Source: Terramyces sp. JEL0728
Lineage: Eukaryota; Chytridiomycota; Chytridiomycetes; Rhizophydiales; Terramycetaceae
Direction: 5' to 3'
Assembly (NCBI GenBank): GCA_027603945.1
Contig: JADIIU010000039.1
Span: 44,183-108,182, forward strand
Length of the DNA: 64,000 nt
Part shown: positions 1 to 64,000 of the stretch, one piece after another
How the letters are laid out: each line of letters begins with the position of its first letter
Numbering within the stretch: the stretch's first letter is position 1
The notes under the pieces: model-generated
The model's input: the letters and a program-made list of their open reading frames with translations, nothing else
Database searches by the model: none
Told to the model about the DNA's origin: nothing
Translations under genes and position numbers: made by a program

Positions 1-1467
1 GAAGCAAAACGGTTGACAAAGCAGGTGCTATCTGCAATCGTATTAATTTGCTTATGATAGGAACATGCTCATTCAATGAAGATTGTCCATCGCGATTTGA
101 AGGCCGAGAATTTGCTGTTGGATGAAAATATGAATATAAAAATATCTGGTACTCTCATCTAACATAGATTTTGGACTTTCAAACTACTACGACCCTAAAA
201 ATTTCTTGCAAACCTGTTGCGGTTCACCAGTATACTCTGCGCCAGAATTAATAGATGGCAAACATTATATAGGGCCAGAAGTGGATATCTGGTCTTTAGG
301 GATTAACGTCTATGCAATGGTTGTCGGTGATTTACCGTTTGCAGATTCAAACCTGACCGCTTTGTACGAATCAATCCTCAAGGGGAAATATGAGCTGCCA
401 GATCATGTTTCACCAGGTAAATCGGACATTAACAAGACTGTAAAGACTTTCTCAGCAAAATGCTGCAAACACAACCAAAAAAGAGGAGTAATTGCACTCA
501 GCTCAGTGATCACATCTGGCTAACGGAATCTTCTTCGTTCTTGGATCCCATGGGCCCCGAATACCGATCATTTAGGCCCAGGAATGAAGACCAAATTGAT
601 CAAAAAATAGTTGATTTAATGTTTGAAAAAATGGCTTTAGACAAGAAATCAACAATTCAGTCCGTATTGCAAGGAAAATATAATCAAATAGCCGGAACAT
701 ACTACTTGCTTGCTTATCAGCGACTGCTAGGGTTAAAGAACAATATTGTCGAGGTAGCACCGCAGTTAATACCCTCCAATGCAAACAGTGGGCCAAAGGG
801 GGTTGATATTAGCGATGAACTCGCTCGAGTATTGTTCCAGGTGGAAAGAAATCGAGTCGTGGAAGACAAGAAACCTGGCTTTAAAGAAACGAAAGCACAG
901 ATCGATAGTAAACATAAAAGCCGTCAGAGTGGAGAGAAAGAAGGCGGAGCATTAAGGTTAGAATCCCCAACCTCCCCAATAAATTTACCGCAAATCGCTG
1001 ACAGTGTTAAATATGCAAACAACAAAGTCTTGGGCATGGCCAATTTGAAGAATGCGTTACCGCAATTGCCTCCAAAAGACTCTTTCTCCGTTCCAAAGTA
1101 CGGAATGGTAAATAAACCGCAAAAAAGCATTCCGGTAGACGACAGTTTGTACAGCGATGAGGGAATAGATCAAAACAAGGAAGTTCGAACGATTAGGTTT
1201 GCATTTAACTGCGTCTGCTCTTCAGTAAAGAGTCCAAAGTCTCTATTTGAAATTCTAACGGAAATCTTGGACAAAAACGATATAATATGGTTTCATGACA
1301 AGTACATTTGTGATTGCGAGTGGGGAGATATTAAGTTTGAAGTTGAAGTTTGTAAACTGCCAAGAATGGAAAGCTACGGATTCAGGTTCAAACGTAACTC
1401 TGGTGATATCTGGGAATTCAAGAAAATCAGCTCAAAGATTTCGCAAGAATTAGAAAAGGCAATATAA
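1..1467 (+). CDS. MARK/KIN1/PAR-1-type Ser/Thr kinase, 5'-truncated
   Basis: The gene runs off the left edge. Exons read <1..39, 61..148, 168..416 and 437..1467, separated by introns of 21, 19 and 20 nt. The visible kinase half has the catalytic loop [11 protein letters not shown], and the APE-like SAPELIDGK segment. A UBA-like stretch follows (near '[15 protein letters not shown]'), then a disordered middle. The C-terminus is a KA1 domain (residues like [10 protein letters not shown] and RFKRNSGD before 1467). Kinase-UBA-KA1 is the MARK/PAR-1/KIN1 arrangement, which in the family controls polarity and microtubule-associated proteins at the cortex. The paralogue (MARK versus Kin1 versus Kin4) cannot be settled without the N-lobe. 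The third intron restores the conserved DC..FL.KML..QPKKR segment that ends the kinase fold. Confidence 0.88.
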
Positions 1468-1510
1468 TATTTAATAACCATTTTTTGGCAAATTTTTTAC
1501 ATTTTTTTGC

Positions 1511-3153
1511 ATGTCGGTTGTCTACTTTGAAGTCCACAATGCAGAGGAAGAAGATGCATTGCTGATTAACTTGAAGTTCCAAGAGCAATTTCCAGATTAT
1601 ATTTGGCACAATGAACCGTTTCGCTTGAAAGTCAAGAGTACAAGCTGTTTGGAAGGATCAATTGATTACGGGGATGCGATCGAAGATGAATGGATCACAG
1701 TTTACTTTTTACGGCAGCTCTCGATTGAAAATTTAAATTATTGCATAAAAATTTGGGACAGCGATGGGGAATTTTTGTTGATCGAAGCTGCTGATTTTTT
1801 ACCAAAGGATATCAACCCGGAAATAATAGATCACCGGGTGTACATTTACCAAGGGCATTTACATTTAATACCTTTGGAATATCAAAACCTTACACTTGAA
1901 AAAGCATTAAAAGTGATATCTGGGGAACAAAACACTCAAGCCGATGAAAAAATAGAAAAATCAGCGTTCAAAAGAATAGAAAACTACCCATCATTAATCA
2001 GCTCAAATTACCACCATGCAAAGGTGTTTGTACCGCATTTGGCTGCCCATTTGCTTTACCATTGCCCCCAGCTGGTTGCTCCAGCAATTGAAGCATTCTA
2101 TGCCAGAGATCCAATATCTATGCGGCCATGCTCGGAAATGAAGGTTTTCCCACCGTCCACAAATATCCCAATGACCGTAAAGTTCACCAAAGTCTTATAT
2201 TCCAAACTATATTCTACACCATTCGTTGCACCAAAACAATTTTCAATGCCTGCAGTTTCTGATAGCAATTACGAAGCATGCTATCTGGGTATGAAACTGG
2301 CCTGCGGTTTGGAAATACTATACCATTCGAAACTGTCCCAAAAGGTACTCGATTGTTTATTTAGCTTACTGACAGTTCAAATCCAAAGTTCCTTGTCTAC
2401 ATTTCAAAACTGGAAGCGCTGGGATATTTTAGAGGAGAGATCCAAGGGTCTAATTTGTACAATCAACTTGAAAAAATGGCTCTTAAGGAATTTATTTCGA
2501 TGGAATCCCAAAACCAGTACTTGACTGGAGAAATGCATCTCTTATTGGACTTGGAGCAGACTCCTGTCGAACTGATTCCTAATTTTAAGCAAGATTCCAA
2601 TAGCTGGATGCAAATCGCTCCTGAAGAAGTTGACGATCTGCTGCAATCGAAATCTACAGATATGAGCGAGGATGAAATCGTAATATCTTGCTAACGGTAG
2701 TCTGATTTAGACGAACAAGAAGAAAAAGAACTGAATGAATTGAAGTCCATGTTGGGAGGGTTTAATGAATTTATTGACAAAGAAAGTGGGGTGAAAGGTG
2801 CTCTGCTACCTGATGAGGCAAATTCGGATGACTCTGAAGAGTCTGACGGCTCTTTGCAAGCTATAAATTTCAATGCCGACAATTATATTAGTTTGCTTTC
2901 CTATCAAGGCGAAAACCAGTATAGTCAAGACATGGACCTGCTCTACCAAGCAATGGATGACGAGCTGCGCAATACAGATATTGGAAAAGATTTTGAAACA
3001 GTTAAAGATCAAGATGGGAACGATGTAGTGGACGCGAATCTCAATCTCATAAAGAATATGCTGGAATCTTTCACCGCACAAAACGGTTCTGCAGGCCCTA
3101 CTTCAAATATAATAGGATCTTTGGGCCTTAATCTACCTAAACCGGATATTTAA
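1511..3153 (+). CDS. ECD: Ecdysoneless/SGT1-family protein (ECD)
   Basis: Exons 1511..2344, 2365..2679 and 2701..3153 give 533 residues. The N-terminal half carries the ECD hallmark: an EDEW..VYFL segment followed by WDSDGEFLLIEAADFLP and a YIYQGHLHLIP strand. Downstream comes the helical region ending GYFRGEIQGS, and then an acidic tail with EEVDDLLQ. ECD binds PRPF8 and R2TP in animals and acts in pre-mRNA splicing and transcription; in fungi the SGT1 homologue rescues gcr2 mutants. Two introns (20 and 21 nt) are required, because the conserved KLEALGYF and SDLDEQEEKE segments lie in other frames. The ATG at 1511 follows a T-rich leader 44 bases after the kinase stop. Family assignment is firm; function is by homology. 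Confidence 0.87.
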
Positions 3154-3221
3154 GCCGTGTTTTATGTACAGTAATAAAATTGAAAATAATGACATCACCC
3201 GATAGTTTTTAGTTTTTCAGA

Positions 3222-63202: not shown

Positions 63203-63236
63203 ACAGCTCCTTAATAAAATTACTTTATTTAAAAAT

Positions 63237-63933
63237 TCAAGCGTAAATAATCGCGACCACTTCAAAGAGGTTTTCAATCAGGCTGGTCAAATGCAACATC
63301 AGTACAGTAAGTAGCACAAAAACAGACGTTTTTTCAGAGTACCACGCGGTTGGTCTGCTAATGATATTGAGTGACAAACAAGTAATCACAATAATAGGGA
63401 CTTGGAATCCGATAGTAAGAAACCGTGAAATAGCCCTGCGCTTGTAAGCCTTTGATTTTGCCTTTGGTGCTTCATCGCTCGCCATGCCAGAGATGATAAT
63501 CGCCATTATCCCACAACATCCATCCTCAGCTCCAACCAAAAAATCGCCATCCTTATCCTTCATATGAAACAGACACATGTAGAGAGTCCATACCGTTTGT
63601 ACTAGAATCAGCAATGTTCCCAATAAAGAAAGTACTAGAGCACATCCAAGTTCACTAGTGTTAATTGCGATTACGTGAATACAGTCCAGTCACATCCAAA
63701 TTGATCGAAACAAATATTCTGAAATATTGGGGATACATTTTGACAGGGTTTGCCCACGTACAGATCTTGGTAGTACAAATCCATTCCTAATTTGAGATAT
63801 GGTAGATAAGTGCTTCCGTAGAGCGAAAAAATATACAGTCCTCGATGCAGCAAGTTGTAGGATACCATTTGATAGAAAAACAATGTCTGAGTTCTGATCT
63901 GTTAAATGTCCACCTCGCCATAGTTGGTGACAT
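63237..63933 (-). CDS. Small multi-pass membrane protein, unknown family
   Basis: Coding order is 63933..63914, 63893..63675 and 63654..63237, 218 residues; introns 20 and 20 nt. The first coding exon is only 20 nt (MSPTMAR...). Hydrophobic stretches lie at ELGCALVLSLLGTLLILVQT, GIMAIIISGMA (marginal), FLTIGFQVPIIVITCLSLNII and VFVLLTVLMLHLTSLI. A Cys-containing loop (KPCQNVSPIFQNICFDQFGC) precedes them, with another DGCCG loop inside. Three to four helices are likely. No family is recognised. The start and the 20-nt first exon are the weakest part; the downstream exons are supported by continuous frame. Confidence 0.65.
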
Positions 63934-64000
63934 GAGGGGTTGGGTCAGTGGGGGGTTTCAAAGTTTCACAAATATTAAATTGTACTGTAAAAAATTGTAC
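63934..64000. other. 5' leader of the last minus-strand gene
   Basis: Sixty-seven bases upstream of the 63933 start. They are AT-rich with a pyrimidine run. Nothing else is visible before the window edge. Confidence 0.4.

Follow-up and report, generated by a model that had tools for sequence, protein, structure and literature searches.

How does a spliceosome remove introns of about 20 nucleotides (nt)? The question is raised by a 64,000-nt stretch of contig JADIIU010000039.1 of Terramyces sp. JEL0728 (hereafter the window), in which a first-pass annotation, made from the letters of the DNA, had placed about 105 introns in about 40 genes, nearly all of them 19-23 nt long, and had asked how U1, SF1 and U2AF could fit on 20 bases. 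We analyzed 264 kb of this genome, consisting of the window and 20 stretches of 10 kb (contigs C1-C20); short loci cut out by genome searches served to study individual genes and stand outside all statistics. Near-uniform introns shorter than about 25 nt are the main intron class in these 264 kb. Very likely, in our judgement, these are spliceosomal introns of the U2 type, in a chytrid resembling Boothiomyces, that have become shorter until they reached a lower limit, or floor, imposed by two spacings: from the 5' site to the branch-point adenosine (branch A), and from the branch A to the intron end.

The length class is visible before any gene is modelled. Scanning both strands of the window for elements of the form GTA..TAAY..AG, we counted 20 elements of 19 nt, 35 of 20 nt and 24 of 21 nt, compared with 6.0-6.2 (standard deviation 1.9-2.8) in 20 shuffles, and at most 11 at each of the remaining lengths between 14 and 60 nt. 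A signal-only scan of both strands of the 264 kb, which uses no coding information, returned 76, 141, 75 and 21 elements of 19, 20, 21 and 22 nt at a threshold of 9.6, against 1, 2, 1 and 2 in one shuffle. Introns were also called with a purpose-written Viterbi model that combines codons and splice signals, run with either a trained length prior or a flat one (14-200 nt). For the window, the trained prior gave 113 introns in 45 genes, 112 of them at 18-23 nt, and the flat prior 97 introns in 41 genes, in agreement with the number and the lengths given by the first-pass annotation. The six segments that it had quoted as examples do start with GT and end with AG at the positions and lengths it gave; the trained prior recovers all six, and the flat prior five, with an intron at 25-60 instead of 40-60. 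Over the 264 kb the flat prior called 433 introns, 362 of them at 18-23 nt; 20 nt is the most frequent length (159 introns). The length distribution, whose plotting had been proposed as a check, thus has a sharp peak at 19-22 nt, and this peak is also seen model-free. For the few introns of 25-37 nt that had been listed as well we found no support beyond noise, as the lengths of calls above 23 nt show the same scatter as a decoy control, in which GT..AC introns are called under the same rules.

When the finder was run on the 264 kb with a flat length and no branch-point term, 291 of its 678 calls measured 19-22 nt, and TRAY was present in 234 of these 291, compared with 99 of 305 when the last 20 nt of calls longer than 30 nt were inspected. 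Three of the 362 introns are GC-AG; the finder permits only G[TC]..AG ends and so partly imposes the terminal dinucleotides. Six calls of 14, 15 and 18 nt were distrusted, and an 18-nt call in the beta-tubulin gene (4967-4984, trained prior) proved to be exon, its removal deleting a hexapeptide conserved in PDB 6tis_B. The 136 complete gene models carry a mean of 2.3 tiny introns per gene, with 28 models intronless, and each kb of coding sequence holds 1.76 introns on average; by extrapolation, the genome would hold about 20,000 tiny introns if the remainder resembles the sample. A search for the yeast-like pattern GTATGT..CTAAC was uninformative (15 and 15 matches, compared with 36 and 48 in the reversed control).

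The introns share a common anatomy. The donor is AAG/GTANNT-like, with A at +3 in 91% under the trained model, the branch motif is YTRAY and the acceptor is YAG. In the 362 introns the model placed the branch A at position 14 (140 introns), 15 (171), 16 (43), 17 (5), 18 (1) or 12 (2), with none at 13, and 5 or 6 bases follow it up to the intron end in 320 of them. Both spacings were recovered in a model-free scan of the 264 kb for GTA..TRAY..AG with 10 shuffles, which, together with the shuffled scan of the window, is independent of the claim under study. Here the branch A is found at 14 and 15 in 157 and 163 cases vs 24.4 and 26.2 expected, an approximately sixfold excess each, and at 16 in 58 vs 24.0, a 2.4-fold excess; positions 12, 13 and 17 are at background (23 vs 26.2 at 13, 19 vs 24.3 at 17). 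The distance from the branch A to the end is 5 bases in 160 cases vs 17.2 expected and 6 bases in 149 vs 20.2. Among the introns called without the branch-point term, those of 19 nt have T at position 12 in 86% and A at 14 in 88%, those of 21 nt have T at 13 in 84% and A at 15 in 92%, and none of 19-23 nt carries TRAY with its A at 13. The earlier observation of TAAY close to the AG is therefore borne out; the accompanying statement that the branch point almost touches both splice sites is not quite so, the A lying 14-16 nt from the 5' site and mostly 5-6 from the end. From +6 to the branch motif there is a mean of 4.8 bases (38% T), and from the motif to YAG one of 1.5 bases; these gaps are too small for a polypyrimidine tract.

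Two further features of the model-free scan were recorded. Positions 10 and 11 hold the branch A somewhat more often than in the shuffles (37 and 41 vs 22-24), for which we have no explanation. With the branch A at 14-16, AG distances of 3-12 other than 5 and 6 number 27-37 vs 17-20, a surplus that perhaps comes in part from second AGs near true introns.

Homologous proteins provide a test of single junctions. Six window genes, chosen for their conservation and not at random, were compared with their homologues, the PDB alignments being best matches assessed by eye. Under the trained prior, 18 of the 23 called junctions restore the homologous protein exactly: three in beta-tubulin, one in ribosomal protein uL2, two in phenylalanyl-tRNA synthetase (PheRS) alpha, five in the proteasome beta subunit, four in a Myb/U-box-like gene and three in SF1. 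Another four lie in weakly aligned parts, two each in PheRS and the Myb/U-box-like gene. Compared with eight relatives, two of the SF1 junctions are gap-free and one abuts an indel, and the last four junctions of the Myb/U-box-like gene are gap-free in 7-8 of 8 homologues, its first two falling in an unalignable N-terminus. Two of the long calls fared differently: in place of the third SF1 intron the flat prior puts one of 161 nt, which would remove sequence present in a relative's protein (P0001), and its 104-nt call in a choline-transporter-like gene would remove an exon conserved in PNS1.

Deposited proteins, searched among those of 0.55-1.75 times the query length, were also informative. 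One of them, P0121, is 100% identical to the BRE1-like protein of the window over 96% and very probably derives from the window's own contig. It shares 12 of the 15 junctions tested (9 of 10 BRE1-like junctions and 3 of 5 choline-transporter-like ones), and therefore the annotators' software accepted tiny introns. P0121 fuses these two genes (window 57020-60981) and omits a 63-nt exon between the tiny introns at 60188-60206 and 60270-60291, which is also absent from P0123. This exon aligns gap-free with PDB PNS1, and with it the match to PF04515 reaches 229.0 bits instead of 182.3. The BRE1-like junctions are gap-free in 8 of 10 cases against P0122 and in 7 of 10 against P0123. For the Myb/U-box-like protein, no Boothiomyces-named or near-identical protein was present among the best 120 of 510 matches, and the deposited models of this gene may be broken as well.

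The host is, to judge from its proteins, a chytrid fungus close to Boothiomyces and the Terramycetaceae. The SF1 protein of the window is 80% identical to that of Globomyces and, over 86% of the query, 96% identical to that of Boothiomyces sp. JEL0838, a match on which an aphelid or rozellid host, considered at first, was rejected. The BRE1-like protein, next after P0121, shows 82% (Boothiomyces sp. JEL0866) and 81%; the Boothiomyces lineage belongs to the Chytridiomycota, Rhizophydiales, Terramycetaceae. This is in agreement with the first-pass annotation, which had described a flagellate with fungal-type genes, as is the presence in the window of radial spoke protein 3.

It had also named BBP/SF1, and this gene is indeed in the window, with its Pfam domains (Table 1) and an RRKTRWGS motif that we take to resemble the U2AF-ligand motif. 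SF1 is accompanied in the genome by both U2AF subunits, Yju2 and the U2 and U5 small nuclear RNAs (snRNAs). U2 scores 140 bits, with GTAGTATCTGTTCTT intact and GTAGTA present, and U5 scores 86 bits and carries GCCTTTTAC. The gene for the U2AF large subunit has four introns of 19-20 nt, and its RRM1-2 align with U2AF65 in the PDB. Its family match of 251.7 bits lies below the cut-off of 310.3, probably because introns are read through; sub-cut-off matches to this family also occur in 2 of 14 control genomes, with 26 weaker ones in the present genome, which is the usual behaviour of RRM proteins. The identification accordingly relies on the alignment of the spliced protein and not on the family score. 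The U2AF small subunit gene has four introns, one of them GC-AG, and Yju2 matches its profile from position 1 with 224.9 bits. As far as found, the components look canonical, namely U2AF65 RRM1-2, U2AF35, the N-terminal region of Yju2 and the key motifs of U2 and U5. Both U2AF subunits are thus present where a mean of 1.5 nt is left between branch motif and YAG, and this sharpens the earlier question about room for U1, SF1 and U2AF on 20 bases. The look-up of snRNAs and U2AF homologues that had been proposed succeeded for U2, U5 and both U2AF subunits and not for U1 and U6. None of the four snRNA families gave a signal in any of the 14 control genomes.

Candidates for U6 were inspected and rejected. 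Two weak matches are near-copies of one sequence and lack U6 features by eye, and a one-mismatch ACAGAGA match sits, again by eye, in coding-like sequence, such matches numbering 39 vs 40 in the control. No match was obtained either when U6 was sought by pattern as a gene interrupted by a tiny intron. Two near-identical loci, C111:34235-35045 and C199:4117-4928, drew both the intron-pattern matches and weak U6 matches.

The sequence evidence points to spliceosomal introns, and it suggests how the machinery would be accommodated. The first six bases, GTANNT, would serve as the 5' site; YTRAY would come next, with its branch A at 14-16, and YAG would end the intron 5-6 bases later. The 5' site takes positions 1-6, and the branch site that pairs with U2 takes approximately positions 9-15 when the A is at 14. 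A double spacing floor would result, of at least 14 from the 5' site to the branch A and of about 5-6 from there to the end, the first being close to what the 5' site and the U2-pairing branch site take up together. U1 or U6 and U2 could then lie next to each other, about two bases between them being left free. U2AF may act through protein contacts (SF1 and the small subunit) and through YAG, given that the SF1/U2AF pair is kept although no polypyrimidine tract fits. We lean slightly towards a stronger form of this proposal, in which nearly all splicing would run on this double ruler (14-16 and 5-6) with canonical early factors and with U2AF65 working without a tract, 14 being the physical minimum for an unmodified spliceosome that pairs in full with the 5' site and the branch site alike.

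Several points weigh against this interpretation. Because GTA..TAAY..AG elements of 19-21 nt were used to seed the signals of the finder, its runs depend in part on the claim; and the 264 kb make up about 1.8% of a genome of 15.02 Mb in 231 contigs. The 71 flat-prior calls outside 18-23 nt are scattered like decoys, and a few real introns longer than 23 nt may be among the genes. Frame alone cannot separate stop-free 21-nt introns from exon. One of the 23 homology-tested junctions, the 18-nt tubulin call, is contradicted, and in P0123 two of the ten BRE1-like junctions coincide with inserts. Signal-only elements with the branch A at 12 and 13 do occur, 6 and 3 of 331 at the threshold of 9.6 (3 and 0 at 10.7). 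Neither U1, by Rfam model or pattern, nor U6, by Rfam model or patterns, was found in the genome, in scans that score best candidates only and on an assembly that may be incomplete, so that the absence of these RNAs is not established. Finally, the sequences, spacings, restored frames and named factors were observed directly; splicing itself, the RNA pairings and the part played by U2AF we infer from DNA and not from RNA.

Two observations stand beside these points. The P0123 inserts, near VRRILTQ and VNVNKIS, resemble by eye introns of about 21 nt retained in a deposited model. Among the called introns of the 264 kb, those of 3n length contain an in-frame stop in 78 of 89 cases vs 176 of 273 for the others, a comparison in which the caller misses open 3n introns, so that detection bias is incompletely removed; intron-like 3n segments inside exons, at a threshold of 8.5, number 18 vs 5 for the decoy. 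There is a hint here of selection against stop-free 21-nt introns.

Of the other explanations, the one that survives best is compatible with spliceosomal introns at a spacing floor and refines that reading: deletion pressure alone may set the floor, 14-16 being the smallest distance that any ordinary fungal spliceosome accepts. The canonical look of the components found speaks for it; adaptation could nevertheless reside in Cwc25, Isy1, Prp8, U1 or U6, which are outside that set, and we consider the chances evenly balanced. Over-prediction, by which the segments would be coding or random sequence and the finder would invent introns to hold frames open, can point to the false tubulin call and to the decoy control, which without overlap filtering yields 142 GT..AC calls where the same rules give 455 real ones. 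Decoy lengths are spread out with no peak, though, and the real calls pile up at 19-22 nt; the same peak arises in scans free of coding information, and the 18 exact junctions restore homologous proteins, so that we regard this explanation as very improbable. Equally improbable is the view that the segments are removed or skipped in another way, as ciliate-like eliminated DNA or by translational bypassing of inserts in the mRNA. Both of those systems have short, uniform inserts in coding frames; the segments described here, however, bear spliceosomal signals in a genome with SF1, both U2AF subunits, Yju2, U2 and U5, and most of those tested are absent from deposited proteins of this and sister genomes, which reflects the annotators' reading and not RNA. 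Assembly errors are the least credible source: draft assemblies do contain frameshifts, but small indels would neither come with a GT, a branch motif and an AG at set distances from one another nor insert 19-22 bases that homologues lack.

The window genes and their introns are collected in Table 1. Outside them, a nuclear RNase P RNA was recognized between two predicted genes (34577-34781, minus strand; 31.6 bits vs a cut-off of 28). Four predicted proteins encoded in a cluster on the minus strand (39749-40650, 40672-41364, 49113-50435 and 51337-52200) have one likely membrane span followed by an ectodomain, their kinship being judged by eye; the one searched against Pfam gave no match.

Table 1. 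Genes of the window and their introns (intron length in nt in brackets).
Feature	Position	Strand	Remarks
Kinase-like gene, introns	40-60 (21), 149-167 (19)	+	Name by eye; flat prior prefers 25-60
Intron	2345-2364 (20)	+	Called under both priors
Radial spoke protein 3 (flagellar), gene	3396-4309	+	Pfam PF06098, E 4.3e-91
Radial spoke protein 3, introns	3453-3473 (21), 3879-3899 (21), 4234-4253 (20)	+	Gene finder, both priors
Beta-tubulin, gene	4373-5947	-	Aligned to PDB 6tis_B
Beta-tubulin, supported introns	5743-5762 (20), 5445-5465 (21), 4831-4849 (19)	-	Gap-free vs 6tis_B
SF1/BBP, gene	9539-10990	-	KH, SF1-HH, zinc knuckles; Pfam PF16275, PF22675, PF00098
SF1/BBP, introns	10538-10556 (19), 10075-10095 (21), 9844-9863 (20)	-	Gap-free vs P0001, P0002, P0003
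Class III aminotransferase gene, intron	13645-13665 (21)	+	Pfam PF00202 over 35-433 of spliced protein
Ribosomal protein uL2, gene	26529-27319	-	
Ribosomal protein uL2, intron	27020-27039 (20)	-	Gap-free vs PDB uL2
Ankyrin/DHHC-like gene, intron	32141-32160 (20)	+	Name by eye
Myb/U-box-like, gene	32874-34486	+	Weak Pfam matches just below cut-off
Myb/U-box-like, introns	32914-32932, 32992-33011, 33216-33235, 33535-33554, 33853-33872, 34445-34464	+	
Proteasome beta-6-type, gene	41405-42154	-	Gap-free at 5/5 junctions vs 8fz5_H
Proteasome beta-6-type, introns	42091-42112 (22), 41990-42011 (22), 41848-41868 (21), 41716-41735 (20), 41533-41552 (20)	-	
Phenylalanyl-tRNA synthetase alpha, gene	53051-54638	-	Aligned to 3l4g_A
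Phenylalanyl-tRNA synthetase alpha, supported introns	54062-54081 (20), 53820-53839 (20)	-	
Phenylalanyl-tRNA synthetase alpha, introns in weakly aligned parts	54455-54473 (19), 54291-54310 (20)	-	
BRE1-like RING E3, gene	57020-59355	+	Ten introns of 20-22 nt, including 58971-58990; 9/10 junctions as in P0121
Choline-transporter-like (PNS1-type), gene	59445-60981	+	PF04515; PDB PNS1; 3/5 junctions as in P0121
Choline-transporter-like, introns	59568-59587 (20), 59652-59671 (20), 59971-59989 (19), 60188-60206 (19), 60270-60291 (22)	+	

In the papers cited below, ultra-short introns are described from ciliates, a relic algal nucleus, dicyemids and mikrocytid parasites; among the best matches in the open-licence PMC literature, judged by titles and abstract openings, no description of such introns in a chytrid was found. 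In the heterotrich ciliate Stentor coeruleus introns measure 15-16 nt, occur in 18% of genes and lack a strong branch motif, their branch A being found mostly at position 10 (PMC9505925). The chytrid introns are like these in being very short and narrow in length, with a near-constant branch A about 5 nt from the end and with U2 and U5 conserved (PMC9505925); they are unlike them in their branch A at 14-16 within a clear YTRAY and in that 28 of the 136 complete models lack introns. The glycine plug of Cwc25 and the N-terminus of Isy1 are reported to be different in Stentor. Similar length and large numbers are shared with the nucleomorph of Bigelowiella natans (18-21 nt), Paramecium and dicyemids (PMC10245619, PMC2483917), whose short introns are described in PMC2483917 as weakly constrained in sequence and without a branch-point signature. 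In contrast, the branch point of the chytrid introns is strong even when the finder has no branch-point term, and the genome is that of a fungus and not a relic nucleus; the degenerate signals and missing branch-point signature that the same paper makes the mark of short introns were not found in them.

Mikrocytids (Rhizaria), obligate parasites with a reduced spliceosome and 224 introns of 16-17 nt (PMC10245619), share the narrow length and conserved sequence, unlike the chytrid with its 362 introns in 264 kb. A short fixed distance from branch point to AG and the lack of a polypyrimidine tract are also known from Yarrowia, Trichomonas and Giardia, which are, however, treated as intron-poor in PMC2483917, the introns of Yarrowia being long (median 204 nt). 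Two related human cases are cited in PMC12862383: SPF45/RBM17 stands in for U2AF2, and SMU1 is involved where the distance from the 5' site to the branch point is short.

The introns described here are thus as short as those of ciliates and nucleomorphs, and what sets them apart is the fungal host and the strong branch point at a double spacing floor. They run counter to the generalization in print that a branch-point signature is absent from lineages with short introns. For public gene models they call for caution, as the deposited protein that very probably belongs to the window's contig merges two genes and has lost an exon conserved in yeast-type PNS1. Relatives are listed under culture-collection numbers (JEL0838, JEL0866), which would open the way to extracts and to structures on natural introns near the minimum distances. 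The system would offer a clean test case for the role of U2AF without a polypyrimidine tract, and a natural test of the smallest piece of RNA that a spliceosome still removes.

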